NCBI GenBank assembly: GCA_019359695.1
Contig: JAHHGV010000008.1
Coordinates: 62,001 to 126,000 of the forward strand
DNA: 64,000 nucleotides
Direction of reading: 5' to 3'
Source of the DNA: Brasilonema angustatum HA4187-MV1
GTDB lineage: Bacteria; Cyanobacteriota; Cyanobacteriia; Cyanobacteriales; Nostocaceae
This document shows, piece after piece, positions 9,036 to 60,195 of the stretch (position 1 is its first letter; each line of letters begins with the position of its first letter). The notes beneath the pieces were generated by a model. The model did not search any database and was not told where the DNA came from. It saw only the letters and a list, made by a program, of their open reading frames with translations. Made by a program: the position numbers and the translations under genes.

Positions 9036-10238
9036 ATGGGATTAGTCAAGAATTTGTCACTTGCCTTTATCGGTGCGGGGTTTCTGGTAGCGGCTGCAGC
9101 AGCCCAAGCTATGGCGTTAAGCTTACAGTACGATCGCTCTATTGGTAGTCCTGGTTTCGGTCCTGGGCAGCTGTTTGTTCCCCAAGGTATAGCGGTGGAT
9201 GGCTCAGGAAATATCCTTGTAAGTAACGGTCGCGGTGTTAACCCGGATGGCACTCCTAATTACAACCTCGGTGACAAAATCGAAAAATTTAGTCCTAGCG
9301 GTGAGTATATTGGAGCAATTGGCTCCGGCGGCACAGGACCCGGACAGTTTGACGAGCCAACAACTGTAGACTTTAATCCAGTAACAGGGGATCTGTATGC
9401 AGGTGATGTTTACAACAACCGCATCAATCAATTCGATTCTCAAGGTAACTTTATTAGATCCTTTGCAAATGGAGAATTTACCCCTCTGGTACCAGGTAGG
9501 CTTTTCTTTGGACCATCTGGTGTGACATTTGACAAAGCTGGCAACGTGTACGTTGGTGATTTTAACGGTGAAAGGATTCTTAAATTCACACCAGACGGAC
9601 AGCAAATTGGTGTCATTGGTGGCACCACTGGCACTGCACTTGGAGAATTCCAAGGTGTAGCCGGTACAAGAATTTCCCCAGTTAGTGGAAATATCTATGT
9701 AGCTGACCAGTATAACAACCGCGTTCAAGTACTCGATCCAAATGGTAAACCTCTGTTCACATTTGGTTCAGCAGGTAGCGGACCAGGACAGCTTCTTCAG
9801 CCAATTGGCATCGAAGTGGACGACCAAGAGAATGTCTATGTAGCTGATTCTATCAACAGCCGTGTTCAGGTATTCGATAAAAACGGTAAGTTCCTGACTT
9901 CCTACGGTCAACCAGCCCTCGATGCATCAGGCAACCCAGTCCCGCCTCCAGGATTAACCGATCCTCCATTCGGCAACCCCCTCGACCTGACTCCAGGCAG
10001 ATTTAACTGGACAGGTGGCACAGCACTCAAAGATAACAAGCTGTATGTAGGCGATTTCTTCCAAGGTCGCGTTCAAGTATTGGACGTCGTTAAGGATGGG
10101 GCAACCAAAGTACCTGAACCTGCTTCACTATTAGGTTTAGGCTTGTTAGGAATTGGCGCTACTGCCAGCACATTGCGGAAAAAGCAGCAAAAGGCAACCT
10201 TCAGTATACAGGCAGAACCAGAAAAAGCTGCTGTTTAG
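9036..10238 (+). CDS. scyF: ScyF, NHL-repeat protein with signal peptide and PEP-CTERM tail
   Basis: A 400-residue NHL-repeat beta-propeller. Residues 1-30 form a signal peptide (LSLAFIGAGFLVAAAAAQAMA). The repeats show the NHL pattern: GFGPGQLFVPQGIAVDGSGN, GPGQFDEPTTVDFNPVTG, GPGQLLQPIGIEVDDQEN and others, each followed by a YVAD.INSRVQVF-type strand. The end carries a second PEP-CTERM tail in this locus, VPEPASLLGLGLLGIGA plus basic residues. NHL propellers usually act in protein binding or as lyase-like scaffolds; the role of ScyF in scytonemin assembly is not settled. Placement immediately before the ebo genes matches other cyanobacterial scytonemin loci. Confidence 0.92.
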   Translation: MGLVKNLSLAFIGAGFLVAAAAAQAMALSLQYDRSIGSPGFGPGQLFVPQGIAVDGSGNILVSNGRGVNPDGTPNYNLGDKIEKFSPSGEYIGAIGSGGTGPGQFDEPTTVDFNPVTGDLYAGDVYNNRINQFDSQGNFIRSFANGEFTPLVPGRLFFGPSGVTFDKAGNVYVGDFNGERILKFTPDGQQIGVIGGTTGTALGEFQGVAGTRISPVSGNIYVADQYNNRVQVLDPNGKPLFTFGSAGSGPGQLLQPIGIEVDDQENVYVADSINSRVQVFDKNGKFLTSYGQPALDASGNPVPPPGLTDPPFGNPLDLTPGRFNWTGGTALKDNKLYVGDFFQGRVQVLDVVKDGATKVPEPASLLGLGLLGIGATASTLRKKQQKATFSIQAEPEKAAV

Positions 10239-53599: not shown

Positions 53600-53797
53600 T
53601 CAATTAGAGGAAGAGATACGGTTTGAGTAGAAGCCTGCGTTGGTATAAGTTGTGGTAATGGTGTAAGCAAAGTTACTACCCTGTGCAAATGCAAATGCAC
53701 CCGCGTTTGCCTGGGAAGGAGAATATTGAAATCCACCTTGAACTTCTTTTGCTTGTTGAGCAACCATTTCTATGTGAGATAGATCTTTGATAATCAT
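53600..53797 (-). CDS. Double-glycine leader peptide precursor A
   Basis: A 65-residue precursor. The leader is MIIKDLSHIEMVAQQAKEVQ followed by GG at positions 21-22, the classical peptidase C39 cleavage motif. The 43-residue core begins FQYSPSQANAGAFAFAQGSN and is rich in Ser, Thr, Ala and Tyr, with no Cys. Ribosome site AGGAG is 10 bases before ATG. It shares the leader signature DLSHxE...QGG with the precursors at 54790 and 55992. The product is probably exported through the neighbouring HlyD system; whether the core is modified cannot be told. Confidence 0.8.
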   Translation of the reverse strand: MIIKDLSHIEMVAQQAKEVQGGFQYSPSQANAGAFAFAQGSNFAYTITTTYTNAGFYSNRISSSN

Positions 53798-53935
53798 GAT
53801 ATTGCTCTCCTGAAAATTGCTAGTTCATTCGTCTAAGTTGGTGTCAACATAACAAAAAAGCTATTGAAGAAAACCACCTGTTTTATGGGGCTTCTATTCA
53901 ATAGCTTCTTGAACAAAAACTCAGTAAAACAAGCT

Positions 53936-54241
53936 TCATGAAGTACGTGCACTCGCATAGGAAGTGGTGTAAGTAGGTCCATTAGCAGCAGCACCAGCAG
54001 CAGCACCAGCAACAGCGTATTTATATCCATAGTCAATGCTATAGCTATACTTACCAGTTGCAGGGTTAAATGAATAAGATACGTTGTAACCTGAACCTGA
54101 ATCAGAGACAGCATAGGTTGATACACTGCTTGTAGGTGTGCTGAAACTCTGTTGAACTACTTGAAGTCCCCCATGCACTTGAGTATCACTCGTAAGTTCA
54201 GTTTCACAAAAGCTTAGGTCAACTATTTTTAATCGACTCAT
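53936..54241 (-). CDS. Double-glycine leader peptide precursor B
   Basis: A 101-residue precursor with a divergent leader, MSRLKIVDLSFCETELTSDT then QVHGG (glycines at 24-25). The core of about 76 residues is Ser/Tyr/Ala/Gly-rich with alternating Tyr patterns (YNVSYSFNPATGKYSYSIDY) and an Ala/Gly run near residue 80. No Cys in the core. An AAGGAGA lies about 6 bases before the ATG. It differs in leader from the other three, so it may serve the same exporter or belong to a second type. Confidence 0.72.
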   Translation of the reverse strand: MSRLKIVDLSFCETELTSDTQVHGGLQVVQQSFSTPTSSVSTYAVSDSGSGYNVSYSFNPATGKYSYSIDYGYKYAVAGAAAGAAANGPTYTTSYASARTS

Positions 54242-54266
54242 AATCTCTCCTTTTCTTCGCAGACAT

Positions 54267-54299
54267 ATCGCTGAAAGTTGTTTAATAACTTTCAGCGAT
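54267..54299. terminator. Hairpin, first copy of duplicated unit
   Basis: Arms ATCGCTGAAAGTT (54267-54279) and AACTTTCAGCGAT (54287-54299) followed by a T-rich tail. It lies downstream of precursor C on the minus strand, 25 bases upstream of precursor B, and may separate their transcripts. Confidence 0.65.
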
Positions 54300-54470
54300 T
54301 TTTAGTATTTGTTTAAAATGCCTCTGAGCAAAGTTTTCAGCCAATGCGCCAACAACTTGCATATTTCTTCGGACTGTCAGCGCATCACTAGTCATTAGAA
54401 GCCACTGCGCGGGTTCTCTCATTGAGTGCAAGTGGCGTTCATTACTCAGACAAAGGACTAATGACTAATG

Positions 54471-54738
54471 ACCCTTACGGGGAAGACCTCCGGTCTCGCT
54501 GCGCGCTCCGCCAGTCGCAGCCTACGGCTCGCTCCGCTAACATGGGGAGCCAGTACTGAAGCGCGTAGCGTGGCACTTTGTGCCATAGGAGGGTTTCCCG
54601 ACAGAGGTATCTGGCGTTGGAAACCACGCCACATGCTACAAGTCGGCAGAGCGTATCCCTTCGCAGTGGCTCGTCTTGGGGAGCCACTGCTGCAGGAGGG
54701 TTTCCCGACAGAGGCATATGGCGTCCGCGCTGGCTCAC
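54471..54738. repeat. GC-rich insertion in copy 1 of the duplication
   Basis: Absent from the same place in copy 2, where TAAGGAC-type sequence runs on directly (about 55940-55960). It contains two sub-blocks with GGGTTTCCCGACAGAGG (54590-54610 and 54700-54717) and GAGCCAGTACTG / GAGCCACTGCTG. Same family as 17600-17735 and 63120-63215. Confidence 0.82.
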
Positions 54739-54789
54739 TAAGGACGACCTGAACGAGTCAGTGTGCAAATTCAATGCGTAACAGCTTAC

Positions 54790-55026
54790 CTATGAAGCAG
54801 TGGAGCTAGAGTATGAGCCTGAGCTAGCACTATTGGGGTAGGAGTAGTAGTAGGGGTAGTAGTAAGGGTAGCCAGAAGTCGCACTTGTATATGTGCTGGT
54901 AGATGTAGTAGCGAAATAGCTACCGTTAGCATAAGCATTAGCAGATGCACTAGATGATGCAAATCCACCTTGAACTTGATGATTTTCTGCAGTGATTTCG
55001 AGGTGAGAAAGATCTGCGATAATCAT
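54790..55026 (-). CDS. Double-glycine leader peptide precursor C
   Basis: A 78-residue precursor. Leader MIIADLSHLEITAENHQVQ then GG at 20-21. The 57-residue core has FASSSASANAYANGSYF, a Thr/Ser stretch, then a Tyr/Pro-rich central block (PYYYPYYYSYP) and a Ser-rich end. No Cys. The ribosome site AGGAG stands a few bases before the ATG (AGGAGAATCATATG). It is a close paralog of the precursor at 55992, differing mostly in indels within the Tyr/Pro block. Confidence 0.85.
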   Translation of the reverse strand: MIIADLSHLEITAENHQVQGGFASSSASANAYANGSYFATTSTSTYTSATSGYPYYYPYYYSYPNSASSGSYSSSTAS

Positions 55027-55460
55027 ATGATTCTCCTAGACTTTACTAGTTTTGATGGGAAACTTTTTTGTAACCAAAACTCTCTTTTCGGTTACATGTA
55101 TAAACCTAACACTTCCATAAAATAAAAAATATAAAGTAACGATGAAGATGGATTTTTTTTGAGCAAGAAGATCTGTTCTTACATAGATTTTTTTCTATTA
55201 AAATAATACTAAAATAGGCAAGACAATGAATCTGGTTTTTTGAAATTTTTTAAACCAGAAATTTCGGTTTTAAACTAGAAATTAAAGCAAAAACTATAAG
55301 TTAAAAAATCAATAATTGATTTTTTTCATAAAAAACCTCTTTTTTGTTTTTGTGATAGTTTTGAAAATCCTTGCATGAATAGTTCGCAACGCAAAGTTTG
55401 ATTTGCGCTAAATAACCTCTAATATCTCCTAATTTTGGAGTGAAGAACTGATAACTAAAG

Positions 55461-55745
55461 TCAAGGCTGCATCAACACATCCTCTGATGCTTGAAGATAA
55501 GTGTCGGAATCTAACATGGTCAATGTTTCCATTAATTCAATTTGTTGCTTCAACCAATGATCAAACAATTATTGCTGAATTTGGTCAAGTAAGTGCTGAT
55601 CCAAGATAGGTTGAATCGTTTCTTCTACCCAAATCAAATAAACTCCCTTGGAGGTTGATATCGTCTTGATAAGAGATGGTGGAGTGGCAGCAAATACAGC
55701 TGCTGCAATCTCTTGTCGAAATTTGTACGACGTCAGATTCCTTAA
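55461..55745 (-). pseudogene. Decayed 3' fragment of the SurA/PpiC-type isomerase
   Basis: About 285 bases match the last third of the isomerase gene at 56762-57544, with FRQEIAAAVFAATPPSLI and GVYLIWVEETIQPILDQHL. A C-to-A change (55571) turns a Glu codon into TAA, and the 5' two-thirds are missing. It is a by-product of the tandem duplication. Confidence 0.9.
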
Positions 55746-55775
55746 TATGCTTTTTGTCGGCTTTTTGTCGCAGAC

Positions 55776-55812
55776 ATATCGCTGAAAGTTGTTAAACAAC
55801 TTTCAGCGATAT
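55776..55812. terminator. Perfect palindrome, second copy of duplicated unit
   Basis: Two 18-base arms, 55776-55793 and 55795-55812, around one central base (arm ATATCGCTGAAAGTTGTT). Same element as 54267-54299 but more perfect. Position after precursor D on the minus strand suggests a terminator or mRNA 3' stabiliser. Confidence 0.7.
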
Positions 55813-55991
55813 TTACTATTTATTTAGAATGCCTCTGAGCAAAGTTCTAAGCCAATGCGCATATAACTTGCATATTTTTTCGTGATCACTGTCAGCGCAT
55901 CACTCGTCATTAGTGATTAGTCAGATAAAGGACTAATCGCTAAGGACAACTCGAACGAGTCAATATGCAAGTTCAATGCGTAACAGCTTAG

Positions 55992-56234
55992 CTATGAAGC
56001 AGTGGAGCTTGAAGATGAGCTTGAGCTAGCACTATTGGGGTAGGAGTAGTAGGGGTAAGGGTAGTAGTAGTAAGGGTAGCCAGAAGTCGCACTTGTATAA
56101 GTGTTGGTACTTGTAGCAGCGAAATTGCTACCGTTAGCATTAGCACCAGATGATGCACTAGATGATGCAAATCCACCTTGAATTTGATGATTTTCTGTAG
56201 TGATTTCGAGGTGAGAAAGGTCTGCGATAATCAT
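55992..56234 (-). CDS. Double-glycine leader peptide precursor D
   Basis: An 80-residue precursor with leader MIIADLSHLEITTENHQIQ then GG. The core of 59 residues begins FASSSASSGANANGSNF, has a Tyr/Pro block (YPYYYYPYPYYSYP) and ends in a Ser-rich tail with TAS. It is followed upstream by an AT-rich leader and the full isomerase gene. It differs from precursor C by few substitutions in the leader and more in the core, so the core diversifies faster. Confidence 0.85.
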   Translation of the reverse strand: MIIADLSHLEITTENHQIQGGFASSSASSGANANGSNFAATSTNTYTSATSGYPYYYYPYPYYSYPNSASSSSSSSSTAS

Positions 56235-56520
56235 ATGATTCTCCTAGATTTTACTAGTTTTGATTGGAAACTTTTTTGTAACCAAAACTCTCTTTTTGAT
56301 TACATGTATCAACCTAACACTTCCATAATAGTAAAAAAATAAAGTAACGATGAAGTTCGATTATTTTTGATCAAAAAAAATAGTAAAAACATCAACTTTT
56401 CTCTATTAATAAATTATACAAAAATAGGCAAGACAAAATTCTGGTTTCTTTGAGAAAAAAACCAGATACTTAGGTTAATGACTATAAAATAAACAAAAAA
56501 ACATTAGTAAATAACAAAAT

Positions 56521-56616
56521 TACAGCAGTTTTCGGGTAAATAGACCACACTCTCCGGGACGCAATACCTTGTACCCCTATAAAAAATAGTGGTTCAAATA
56601 GATGAAAACCGCTGTA
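56521..56616. repeat. MITE-like element, TACAGCAGTTTTC ends
   Basis: Inverted ends TACAGCAGTTTTC and GAAAACCGCTGTA with inner ACCACAC / GTGGTT pairing. A second member is at 60196-60290. It lies in the leader region between precursor D and the isomerase. Confidence 0.78.
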
Positions 56617-56761
56617 AATAATAAATTTTGTATCCGAAATAACCTCTTTTTGTTTCTGTTATAGTTTTGAAAATCCTTGCATGAATAGTTCGCAAAGTTT
56701 GATTGGCGGTAAATAACCTCCAATATCTCCTAATTTTGGGGTGAAGAACTGATAGCTAGAG

Positions 56762-57544
56762 TCAAGCCTGCATCAATACATCCTCTGATACTTGAAGATG
56801 AGCGTCAGAATCTAACATGGTCAAGATTTCTATTGATTGAATTTGTTGTTTCAACCAATGATCAAACAATTCTTGCTGAATTTGGTCACGTAAGTGCTGA
56901 TCCAAAATAGGTTGAACAATTTCTTCTACCCAAATCAAATAAACTCCCTTGGAGGTTGATATCGGCTTGATAACAGACGGCGGAGCGGCAGCAAATACAG
57001 CGGCTGCAATCTCTGGTCGAAAATCTGTACGACGTCGCATTCCTTGATATCCTCCAGCACGTCGAAGTTCAGGCTGTTGAATATATTCACGAGTAATTTC
57101 TTGGAAAGTAATTTCGCCTGACTGCAGAGAATAAAACAGTTCTAGAGCTAAATCTCTGTCATCCAAGATGACTTCATAGGTGACAGCAGCAACGTAATTG
57201 AGTTGGTTTTCATAAAAGAATCGTTCCACCTGCGTAGCAAACAGGTGATTAGCTAACTTAGTAGCAAGTACGTTGTTATGAATCAATTCTTCAAACTCAG
57301 CCAGACACAGATGATGTTTTTTTAGCCAGTCCCAAGTGTCTTGAGCTTTGACAAGTTTTTTTGCAAAGCGTAATTTATCTCCTTCCTGTTGAAGTTCTTC
57401 TTCCGAGACTTGAATACCTGCTTCTTGGGCCGCCGATGCAATAATTTTTTGGCTTGCTATAGCACAGACAACATCAGGGATTTGGCAAGAAAGTTTTAAA
57501 TTGCGAACTAAGTCTGCACCGCAAATGATCAAACGTTTTGACAC
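56762..57544 (-). CDS. SurA/PpiC-type peptidyl-prolyl isomerase of the peptide export locus
   Basis: A 260-residue protein with a helical N-terminal SurA-like domain (residues 15-125, with SEEELQQEGDKLRFAKKL and DTWDWLKKHHLCLAEFEELI) and a C-terminal parvulin domain (about 150-230, with AGGYQGMRRRTDFRPEIAAA and STSKGVYLIWVEE). No signal peptide, so it acts in the cytoplasm or with the exporter. Isomerases of this type are regular neighbours of HlyD and peptidase-ABC exporters in cyanobacterial double-glycine peptide loci, where they may keep precursors unfolded or aid folding. hlyD is upstream on the same strand. Confidence 0.85.
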   Translation of the reverse strand: MSKRLIICGADLVRNLKLSCQIPDVVCAIASQKIIASAAQEAGIQVSEEELQQEGDKLRFAKKLVKAQDTWDWLKKHHLCLAEFEELIHNNVLATKLANHLFATQVERFFYENQLNYVAAVTYEVILDDRDLALELFYSLQSGEITFQEITREYIQQPELRRAGGYQGMRRRTDFRPEIAAAVFAAAPPSVIKPISTSKGVYLIWVEEIVQPILDQHLRDQIQQELFDHWLKQQIQSIEILTMLDSDAHLQVSEDVLMQA

Positions 57545-57739
57545 GACACGATTCTCCTAAAAATTTTAAATTTTGGCATTGGAGAATGGAAGTATGAAAT
57601 AGGGTAGTTCTGATTTGACGCCTTGTTGATTTATCAGAGGTTAGCTGAGGATTTACGCAGCTTGTCAAAGAAATATACGTTTCTTTACATCATCCCCCAA
57701 CTCAGCAATGCCAAAATTTGAGACTGGTAACGTTAAAAC

Positions 57740-57813
57740 AGTTATCAGTTACCAGTTACCAGTTATCAGGTAGGAAACGGACTGGTCCACCCCTTGTTCA
57801 CTGTTCACTGTTA
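57740..57813. repeat. Short tandem heptamer repeats between hlyD and the isomerase
   Basis: Runs of GTTATCA/GTTACCA heptamers and CTGTTCA heptamers, the same STRR family as at 43121. They sit in the 283-base gap after hlyD. Confidence 0.75.
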
Positions 57814-57827
57814 AGGTTGACTTTTGA

Positions 57828-59393
57828 CTAAACGTCTAAACCACCTTTGTGCAATTTCTGAAATGGATCTAAGATAAAGTCGATGACACGTCGGCGGCGG
57901 ATAACCACCTCAGCGGTTGCACTCTGTCCAGGAGTGAGTTGAATACGTTTGTTGCCATTCTGGATATACTGCTTATCCAAAGTTATTTCTAACTCAAAGT
58001 TTTCTACACTCCCTTGAGGTGTTTGGTTAACTTTGGAGTCTGGAGAAATCCAATTGACTTTTCCTGACACGATGCCATACTCCTGAAAAGGATAAGCATC
58101 AAACTTGGCTTTCACAGGCATACCTAATTTTAAGAAGCCACTATGCTGATTAGGCATCTGAGCCTTGAGTACTAAACCACGATTTAATTGTGCAATTTGA
58201 GCAACTTTCTGACCTGGTTGTAGTACTGCCCCAGGCTTGGTAGTCGGGAATTCAAAAATCACACCATCAACGGGCGATCGCACCACTCGTTGCTGCAGTT
58301 GAATCTTGTAAGATATCATCTGGCTTCCTGTTTGGGCAATTTCAGAGTGTAGGGAGTTGATTTGTGATTGCAGTTGTTTAAGTTCTTCTTCAGTTTTGAG
58401 TTGTGCAAGTTCACCTGTATGAACCTGGCTTTGATAATTGCGTTGTTCTTCATGGAAACGGAGTTCAGCTTGCTGGATTTGTGATTTCCCTTGCTGAATA
58501 GTCTTTTGATAACTGCTTTGTTGCTCTTTTAAACTGGACTGAGCTTGAGCAATATCAGACTGAGCTTGTACAAGGTGTTCGTAGTTTTCCTTGGCAGACT
58601 GTTGGATTTCCTCAAAACGCTCTTGTGGCATAACACCATCTTGATAGGCTTTTTTATAGCGTGGGACTTTTTCTTGAGAGGCTTGAAAACGAACTTCTGC
58701 TAATTTATAAGCTACCTTACTAGAATCGAGAGCTTGTTGCACCTGGTCTACTTTCGCCAGTTTTTCCTCATTCTGTAAGTTATAGACGGCTTTGAGAGCA
58801 TCTACATTTTGTCGCGCCTGATCCACTTGGGACTGCTTTGCTAAGAGTTGAGCTTGGTTTTGTTGTTGCTGAGTTTGCACTGAAAGCGTCAATTGATTTT
58901 TGACTAGCTGTAAGCTTTCTCGGCTATTTTTTAGTCCGTCCAACTTTGTTTGAACCTGCTTGAATTCAGTTTTGAGAACCTGTGAGTCCAGTTCCAGTAG
59001 AACCTGACCTGATTTTACGGTGTCGCCTTCTTTGACGTTGACAGCAGTCACACTTCCACCAACTGGACTATCTAATTTTTGGGTTGCACCTTTGGGTTCA
59101 AGACGTCCTCTAGCACTTTCTGTCTCATCCACCTTTGAGAACATCGCCCAAGGTAAAACAGTAATTGCAAAGACTAATAACAAGTACAGCGAAGAACGTG
59201 TCCAGGCTCTAGGTAAAGCATCTAACAGTTCTTCTGTTCCGAAATACCAATTTTCTTGTGCCTCATCTATTGATTCTGTTTGATCTGTTGACTCAATAGA
59301 TTCGGATACTTCTTCCGAAGGAATGTAGCTTTTATGCTTATCCGACTCCAGTTTGGTAAATGGAGATGGACAATGACGAGGTGTATTTGCCAT
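57828..59393 (-). CDS. HlyD-family membrane fusion protein
   Basis: A 521-residue adaptor from the ATG at 59393 (MANTPRHCPSPFTKL); a TTG start 13 codons earlier is less likely. Cytoplasmic acidic N-terminus of about 65 residues, one membrane helix (SLYLLLVFAITVLPWAMF), then the biotinyl-lipoyl half-motif SPVGGSVTAVNVKEGDTV near residue 115. A long coiled coil rich in Gln follows (about 150-370), then the second lipoyl half VRSPVDGVIFEFPTTKPGA and a beta-barrel end. It links an inner-membrane peptidase-ABC transporter to an outer channel; neither is in the window. It heads the minus-strand peptide locus. Confidence 0.92.
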   Translation of the reverse strand: MANTPRHCPSPFTKLESDKHKSYIPSEEVSESIESTDQTESIDEAQENWYFGTEELLDALPRAWTRSSLYLLLVFAITVLPWAMFSKVDETESARGRLEPKGATQKLDSPVGGSVTAVNVKEGDTVKSGQVLLELDSQVLKTEFKQVQTKLDGLKNSRESLQLVKNQLTLSVQTQQQQNQAQLLAKQSQVDQARQNVDALKAVYNLQNEEKLAKVDQVQQALDSSKVAYKLAEVRFQASQEKVPRYKKAYQDGVMPQERFEEIQQSAKENYEHLVQAQSDIAQAQSSLKEQQSSYQKTIQQGKSQIQQAELRFHEEQRNYQSQVHTGELAQLKTEEELKQLQSQINSLHSEIAQTGSQMISYKIQLQQRVVRSPVDGVIFEFPTTKPGAVLQPGQKVAQIAQLNRGLVLKAQMPNQHSGFLKLGMPVKAKFDAYPFQEYGIVSGKVNWISPDSKVNQTPQGSVENFELEITLDKQYIQNGNKRIQLTPGQSATAEVVIRRRRVIDFILDPFQKLHKGGLDV

Positions 59394-59432
59394 AGTTTTC
59401 GGCTTTAAGTTCGTCAAATCAATGTTGTGCAA

Positions 59433-60195
59433 ACAAGTTGGCTTCTGGTTTGCAGAAGCCTGTATGTAGGGTTGTGGTTAAGTTCTTGGCGCTATCTACA
59501 TAGTCTGAGTTTGCCACGAAGAACTATATATATTGATATGCTGCAATAGTGTCTGTTGTTTAGCAAAAACACTTTGTGAATGCTGGTTTCAGGATTTATG
59601 CCTATGCAAAGCACCCGAATTTTAGTTTTATTATGAAATATTTTAGCCGAAAGCTGGGGCTATTTGTTGACACTAGCTGAGTCGGTGCGAAAATTCTGAT
59701 GACATTTCCTTTCCTCCACCACAAAAATTAGTCTTTGGTGTGAACTAGTGGTTCACAACCACGAACTTTGGCGTGTTGCTTGCAGAAAAAATCTTAATTC
59801 TCTGCTTTGGTTCAAACCAGCGTGTCGGTTCGGCTTCGCCGTGCCGTCTGGGCATAGAGCTCATGACTCAGCTTCCTACGCTTGCCTTGCTTGCCTTAAT
59901 CTGGTAATTTTAGGTTGGTCGAGTACTAGATTCGGTTGAGCCTAAAGTACAGTCTGATTAAAGAACTGGTTGCTCATCCCAATATATGCGCGCTATAAAT
60001 CTGTTATGTAAGCTTGCTAAAGCTTGCCGTTGAATTGTCCGGTGTAAAATAGCATTTTCTGGCCGCACATGGTTGTTTTCAATTTTACTTTAGTAAAAAT
60101 TATTTTAAAGAGAAAATTCCAGGAAATTCTCAGAAGAACTTTTATCTTAATAAAAAAATATAATACTTCATTAAAAAACCACAACTTCTTTAGTT
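59433..60195. other. Gap upstream of hlyD
   Basis: About 760 bases without a credible gene. Two short frames, at 59748-59939 and 60017-60223, have no family match, and the second overlaps a repeat. The region holds the promoter of the minus-strand hlyD and, further right, an AT-rich stretch before the repeat at 60196. Confidence 0.45.

Follow-up and report, generated by a model that had tools for sequence, protein, structure and literature searches.

Introduction

The closest described relatives of the locus analysed here are the group II bacteriocin-type clusters of cyanobacteria, for which a precursor leader of the form KIxDLxYLEx10GG and 11 incomplete clusters have been reported (Wang, Fewer and Sivonen, 2011, PMC3140520). 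A functional precedent is provided by EbfG1–4 of Synechococcus elongatus PCC 7942, four small double-glycine (GG) proteins whose export is aided by the C39 transporter PteB and which are required for biofilm formation, the secreted N-terminus of EbfG1 being TTYNPPSYPYPSYPK (PMC4997328). Amyloid behaviour has been described for EbfG1–3 (PMC9981879), and mature EbfG is stated to lack homology to other cyanobacterial proteins. HetC of Nostoc PCC 7120, an exporter with a cyclic nucleoside monophosphate (cNMP)-binding domain, a C39 peptidase and an ATP-binding cassette (ABC), has a developmental role (PMC10986499). The present work concerns a 64,000-base stretch of Brasilonema angustatum HA4187-MV1 (contig JAHHGV010000008.1, positions 62,001–126,000), referred to as the window, in which four GG-leader precursors (pA to pD), a SurA/PpiC-type prolyl isomerase and an HlyD membrane-fusion adaptor are encoded at positions 53,600–59,393.

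On balance we incline to the view that the precursors of this locus, a satellite of a group II cluster without a transporter of its own, would leave in trans through a paralogous pump and serve as secreted matrix proteins.

Loss of the Transporter Gene

No intact transporter gene stands beside the window precursors, HlyD and SurA; a frameshifted 5′ stub alone is left just upstream of HlyD, matching transporter residues 28–92 by tblastn (51%). Three-frame translations and alignment place the frameshifts of this stub in common between the window, L043 (Brasilonema sp. CT11) and L188 (genome G292), and the rest of the gene, ca. 2.9 kb relative to the paralogous cluster C56 of the same genome, is deleted. 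Because the remnant was left in place, the absence of the transporter is a secondary deletion and no special architecture, and on these alignments the deletion is established. A new transporter-free secretion architecture was considered and rejected, as the transporter stub sits in place. The initial annotation, made from the letters of the window, rightly placed a SurA/PpiC isomerase and HlyD upstream of the precursors (PF00639, 2.4e-7; TIGR01843, 1.2e-63) and rightly found no intact transporter beside them, but the unusual architecture it drew from this does not stand, since the stub at 59423–59747 points to deletion. The annotation had missed this stub, as well as the tandem duplication behind pC and pD and the SurA 3′ fragment that separates them.

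From the genome collection, 79 HlyD-relative loci were assembled (best 80 of 99 relatives kept), and in 74 of them a transporter that aligns over at least 700 residues lies 36–616 nucleotides upstream of HlyD. Among the other five, L113 has its transporter in three pieces and L057 and L090 are cut by the contig edge, leaving only L043 and L044 (Brasilonema bromeliae) without one. In an HlyD tree of 34 rows, comprising the window, four paralogues from its own genome and 29 of the 79 loci, the window, L043 and L044 group in a single clade (99/96) whose sister is the C56 type; the position of this clade beside that type (100/98) supports common descent with the group II clusters. Profile and paralogue matches confirm at the locus the HlyD and SurA genes of such clusters. 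The long cNMP-domain C39-ABC transporter that adjoins HlyD and SurA in them is reduced to the stub at the window locus and is intact at the C56 paralogue. The features of the locus are as follows.

57828..59393, minus strand: HlyD membrane-fusion adaptor, 521 amino acids, intact; TIGR01843 at 1.2e-63; 81% to the C56 paralogue of its own genome, 95% to L043
56762..57544, minus strand: SurA/PpiC-type prolyl isomerase, 260 amino acids, GTG start; Rotamase PF00639 at 2.4e-7; 80% to the C56 paralogue
55992..56234, minus strand: precursor pD, H-type, 80 amino acids; 21-residue leader to GG, Tyr/Pro block in the core; outside-genus profile 4.3e-23
55467..55721, minus strand: SurA 3′ fragment (residues 175–259); tblastn 82%, genome search 81%, one internal TAA
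54790..55026, minus strand: precursor pC, H-type, tandem duplicate of pD (87% at amino-acid level), 78 amino acids; 21-residue leader; outside-genus profile 3.3e-26
53936..54241, minus strand: precursor pB, C-type (DLSFCE leader), 101 amino acids; 25-residue leader; outside-genus profile 1.2e-21
53600..53797, minus strand: precursor pA, short H-type, 65 amino acids; 22-residue leader; outside-genus profile 3.4e-16
59423..59747, minus strand: frameshifted 5′ stub of the gene for the cNMP-binding/C39-peptidase/ABC transporter, ca. 90 initial codons and leader region; blastn 76% to L011 9647–9958, where the intact transporter gene of C56 starts
59993..60051, minus strand: conserved sequence preceding the lost transporter gene on its 5′ side; blastn 83% to L011 10021–10080
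55069..55096, minus strand: inverted repeat GTAACC...GGTTAC shortly before pC; counterpart before pD at ca. 56278–56303
54473..54736, no strand given: 264-base insert between pB and pC, a dispersed repeat outside the export system

Along the minus strand, HlyD is followed by SurA, pD, pC, pB and pA. The match of window SurA to TIGR04500 (2.6e-18) is under the cut-off of that model, and no signal peptide was seen on this protein by eye. Precursors pC and pD arose by tandem duplication, with DNA alignment pairing 54735–55307 with 55937–56514 (85%) and 55311–55751 with 56617–57053 (88%); on this alignment, the SurA 3′ fragment between them is a by-product of the recent event. The 264-base insert is a G+C-rich dispersed repeat, is not found at the corresponding site of L043, and has 43 own-genome places among the matches listed.

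Paralogous Clusters in the Same Genome

The export route proposed in the initial annotation presupposes a C39 transporter somewhere in the genome (G000; 98 contigs, completeness 99.7), and 13 PF03412 (C39) matches were found there. Four of the 13 loci, namely C56, C46, C70 and C88, also carry window-type HlyD (46–80% identical) and SurA (48–80%). The closest cluster, C56, consists of a transporter of 1026 amino acids with cNMP-binding, C39, ABC-membrane and ABC-ATPase domains, followed by HlyD (81%), SurA (80%) and GG precursors of its own; by listing of open reading frames (ORFs), the core of the cluster contains only these genes. The C56 transporter is kept at 93–97% in four of the six other genomes of the genus and at 79% in one.

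The Precursors and Their Family

The leaders of pA, pB, pC and pD comprise 22, 25, 21 and 21 residues, respectively, and all end in GG. The motif DLSHxE...QGG is common to pA, pC and pD, the pB leader reading DLSFCE...HGG. The predicted mature cores span 43–76 residues and contain 9–21% Tyr, 16–34% Ser and 15–16% Ala; Cys is absent from all four and occurs once, in the pB leader. Hidden Markov models (HMMs) derived from proteins outside Brasilonema, 26 from 17 loci for one type and 8 from 8 loci for the other, were searched against all 453 window ORFs of at least 35 amino acids. These models put pC, pD and pA (E 3.3e-26, 4.3e-23 and 3.4e-16) and pB (1.2e-21) at the top, with E-values somewhat flattered because the outside proteins were themselves retrieved with models (A4 and A5) that included the window precursors; for the same reason, the ranking confirms that the four belong to the family and is no blind test. 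Leader-only HMMs give the same top ranks (pC 4.9e-8, pD 1.3e-7, pA 5.4e-6; pB 1.1e-11). In Pfam and NCBIfam the window precursors have no match above cut-off (pB, pC and pD have none in NCBIfam, pA one at chance level), so that assignment to a family of either database was rejected; the curated bacteriocin and ribosomally synthesised peptide leader families of NCBIfam (NHLP, Nif11) are not matched either. Members of A6, a wider H-type model of 26 rows, share no common Pfam or NCBIfam family, the best chance-level matches being DUF4394 (E 0.021) and PRK09968 (E 0.0037), each in one of the 26 members.

Model A4, built from pA, pC, pD and five relatives, finds H-type matches at E ≤0.01 in 47 of the 291 genomes of the order, many of them leader-only, and at ≤1e-8 in 17 of 291, the window genome included. 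At 1e-6, A6 matches 11 of 386 genomes sampled across the phylum, all of them the window genome itself or members of the same family or order. Twenty H-type loci were examined, representing the best place in each of 17 other genomes (≤1.6e-7), two weaker ones (G285, G033) and C57 of the window genome. Matches to transporter and HlyD are present in 16 of these 20 loci and to SurA in 16, while H-type precursors without a transporter, HlyD or both nearby recur in four. Many of the loci hold several near-identical H-type copies with a C-type partner, and tandem arrays of near-identical copies occur in L158, L162 and L165. On average the 26 H-type cores contain 19% Tyr, 25% Ser, 19% Ala and 9% Gly, and Cys appears in one of them.

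Individual members add to this picture. At C57 in the window genome (L175, 1789–2142), a further precursor of 117 amino acids with an H-type leader lies near the contig start, with no transporter within the 12 kb examined. Locus L169 (G240) has adjoining H-type and C-type precursors at 9497–10059, and its 19.9 kb contain nothing that matches a transporter, HlyD or SurA; on this gene content, it is another satellite within the same cyanobacterial family. Beside the H-type precursors of L158 (7703–8119), L173 (8908–9267), L174 (3221–3601) and L177 (8611–9066) are proteins with a leader-like DLxYLE...GG motif near the C-terminus, which, by eye, we take to be HetP-like.

The initial annotation thus described the precursors accurately: four GG leaders pointing to C39-ABC export, with exact coordinates and lengths and top HMM ranks, DLSHxE...QGG in three of them, and Cys-free cores rich in Ser, Tyr and Ala, as the computed composition confirms. 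Its suggestion of a matrix or sheath role is plausible given the EbfG precedent. It went too far in considering Cys-free, Tyr-rich cores unusual, since the family is found across the order with an intact transporter beside 16 of 20 loci; a family unique to this strain was rejected on the same ground. Nor does the missing modifying enzyme distinguish the locus, as the core of C56, the closest intact cluster, is also without one.

Palindromes Upstream of the Precursors

A palindrome, TGCCAAAATGGCA (TGCCA-N3-TGGCA), occurs upstream of related precursors, mostly 80–115 nucleotides before the GG precursor. The 20 H-type loci, 336,440 bases in all, contain 54 sites where base composition alone predicts 0.23, the pattern having first been spotted by eye in the same sequences used for counting. 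Of the 54 sites, 28, distributed over 18 of the 20 loci, precede a precursor start by at most 260 nucleotides, and such a site is found before 24 of the 60 precursor ORFs; sites at L158 8318, L163 10191 and L172 9667 serve as examples from loci L158–L177. Genome-wide, TGCCAWWWTGGCA is rare, with all sites inside the cluster in G190 (3/3) and G245 (4/4); elsewhere the cluster share is 4/5 in G079, 2/4 in G062, 7/16 in G104 on the cluster contig stretch and 5/17 in G121 in the stretch examined. From this distribution, TGCCAAAATGGCA is a candidate operator of the export regulon in related clusters.

The palindrome has no site in the 64,000 bases of the window, and an operator of this kind was rejected for the window locus; L188–L190 have none either, and the three TGCCAWWWTGGCA sites of the window genome lie elsewhere, in stretches without a tblastn match to transporter, HlyD or SurA. 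Brasilonema copies instead have an inverted repeat, GTAAYC...GRTTAC, before pC and pD. Its arms change together between species (GTAACC/GGTTAC, GTAATC/GATTAC), so that the palindrome is kept, as seen upstream of pC and pD in the window and in L043, L188, L189 and L051.

Periodicity and Predicted Structure of the Core

In the 26-row A6 alignment, conserved small residues occupy alternate columns (A.A.A.A.A.G..FA.T.T.T.T.A). Column shuffling inside two segments, picked after the alignment had been viewed, gives P 2.2e-4 with all 26 rows and P 4.6e-3 when the 17 rows from outside Brasilonema are taken alone. Since such alternation is expected of strands with one face of small residues, it suggests that the H-type core forms beta-strands. 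AlphaFold2 models reached a mean predicted local distance difference test score (pLDDT) of 46.3 and a predicted template modelling score (pTM) of 0.10 for pD (A4, 8 rows), and 45.5 and 0.30 for pB (A5, 7 rows), values that leave neither model usable for comparing folds.

Fate of the Locus Within Brasilonema

Full-length precursors are present in four of the seven genomes of the genus (G000, G292, G293 and G295, the last being the source of L043), none of which has a transporter at the locus. HlyD and SurA are retained in G292 and G295. In G293 (L189), HlyD is gone, SurA is mostly lost or in pieces and two transporter pieces are left, with the H, C and A precursors still open and their GG leaders present. 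In B. bromeliae, an in-frame fusion joins HlyD to the opening codons of the transporter that was lost (L044, ca. 10000–10020), and HlyD may there be translated from the transporter's start. Taken together, these gene inventories indicate that the genus is losing export genes and precursors in varying combinations.

Differences between the window, L043 and L188 post-date the transporter loss, because all three share the stub frameshifts. Between them, ratios of non-synonymous to synonymous substitution (dN/dS; Nei-Gojobori, with a simple binomial test against neutrality) are 0.16–0.25 for SurA (P 1.7e-6 to 6e-4) and 0.35–0.54 for HlyD (P 0.002–0.034). By this measure, the orphan HlyD and SurA are kept under purifying, though relaxed, selection.

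Interpretation

The comparisons show that an ancestral transporter-HlyD-SurA-precursor cluster was duplicated in the Brasilonema lineage, with the C56 copy staying whole and the window copy losing its transporter by internal deletion while its HlyD, SurA and GG precursors stayed open. In the favoured account, the precursors would be cut behind GG, and a paralogous C39-ABC transporter would export them in trans; C56 is the likeliest candidate, its own HlyD being 81% identical to that of the window. SurA would keep the chains soluble in the cytosol, and the mature cores would become secreted matrix proteins, a role preferred because EbfG is the closest functional precedent. H-type cores may form two beta-strands around a glycine turn, with the Tyr-rich block then giving stickiness or cross-linking, as proposed for EbfG. 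A wider proposal, offered tentatively, is that the H-type proteins are an undescribed silk- or amyloid-like family of secreted matrix proteins, built of two short alternating Ala/Thr beta-strands, a glycine turn between them and a Tyr-rich adhesive or cross-linking block, produced in tandem copies and, in many genera, under the control of a nearly cluster-specific palindromic operator, TGCCAAAATGGCA; in Brasilonema, the family would have neither operator nor transporter and depend in trans on a paralogous pump.

Several observations weigh against export in trans of structural cores. Selection on the orphan pair is relaxed about twofold compared with the C56 pair (HlyD 0.21, SurA 0.08), and only one of 22 pairwise dN/dS tests on the precursors gives P <0.05 (three pooled tests: 0.027, 0.12 and 0.032). 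B. bromeliae has no SurA and its precursors are broken, while in G293, where the precursors persist, C56 has no close orthologue that is intact (68% at best, with a nearer one broken), so that the partner pump is not constant across the genus. The alternating segments were chosen post hoc, and the pLDDT values are so low that the beta prediction is without structural support. Part of this would suit a decaying pseudo-cluster, in which export ceased with the transporter and HlyD, SurA and the precursors are vanishing piecemeal: relaxed selection, precursor ratios mostly not significantly below one, the SurA fragment and duplications, and the partial losses in L044 and L189 all fit. We nevertheless regard decay as unlikely, given frames that remain open in four genomes after the loss, the significant purifying signal on SurA and HlyD, an in-frame fusion that keeps HlyD open in L044, the retention of precursors in L189 although the export genes are gone, and a recent event that was precursor duplication, not loss.

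The precursors could also be bacteriocins or microcins, with antimicrobial cores exported in trans, as would be suggested by the GG leaders, by export through a C39 transporter and by the term bacteriocin used for clusters of this kind (PMC3140520). Low-complexity Ser/Ala/Tyr cores without Cys, the lack of any match to NCBIfam or Pfam bacteriocin models and the absence by eye of a recognisable immunity gene among the neighbours make this improbable, and the near-identical tandem arrays of L158, L162 and L165 suit structural proteins better. Signalling peptides for cell differentiation, comparable to whatever cargo HetC exports, would be a still more distant prospect: 43–76-residue cores in multiple near-identical copies are unlike signals, and no regulatory receptor was seen. 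Towards signalling point the HetP-like proteins with a C-terminal DLxYLE...GG in L158, L173, L174 and L177, together with a HetP-like ORF near C56 (L011 12839–13180). HetC itself, a cNMP-domain C39-ABC exporter, points the same way (PMC10986499).

The locus provides a natural experiment that asks whether precursors can be served in trans by C39-ABC exporters. The analysis also exposes a Tyr/Ser/Ala-rich GG-secreted family whose core is clearly periodic and for which there is a candidate operator; should it prove structural, it would help to explain many GG clusters of filamentous cyanobacteria as sources of sheath or biofilm components and not of antibiotics. Beyond the papers cited, the part of the literature that was searched contains no description of the Tyr-rich family or the palindromic operator, and the H-type family deserves description.

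Comparison With Known Systems

As in group II clusters, HlyD, SurA and several downstream GG precursors are found in the window, with leaders that fit the reported motif, and the long cNMP-domain transporter recurs in the C56 paralogue; the window differs in that its transporter is deleted (PMC3140520). The available text of that paper contains no description of a transporter-deleted cluster type or a Tyr-rich core family, while the HetP motif it reports resembles the DLxYLE...GG proteins of L158, L173, L174 and L177. HetC has the same cNMP-C39-ABC architecture as the C56 transporter, although its role is developmental, unlike the matrix role proposed for the window precursors (PMC10986499). 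The EbfG system, whose transporter, unlike that of the window, is adjacent to its genes, shares with the window four small GG-leader proteins, a C39-ABC route and the lack of an antimicrobial core, the window being known by sequence only. Finally, the Tyr/Pro-rich EbfG1 stretch TTYNPPSYPYPSYPK (15 residues) is much like SGYPYYYYPYPYYSYPNS in the Tyr/Pro block of pD, a likeness in make-up only.

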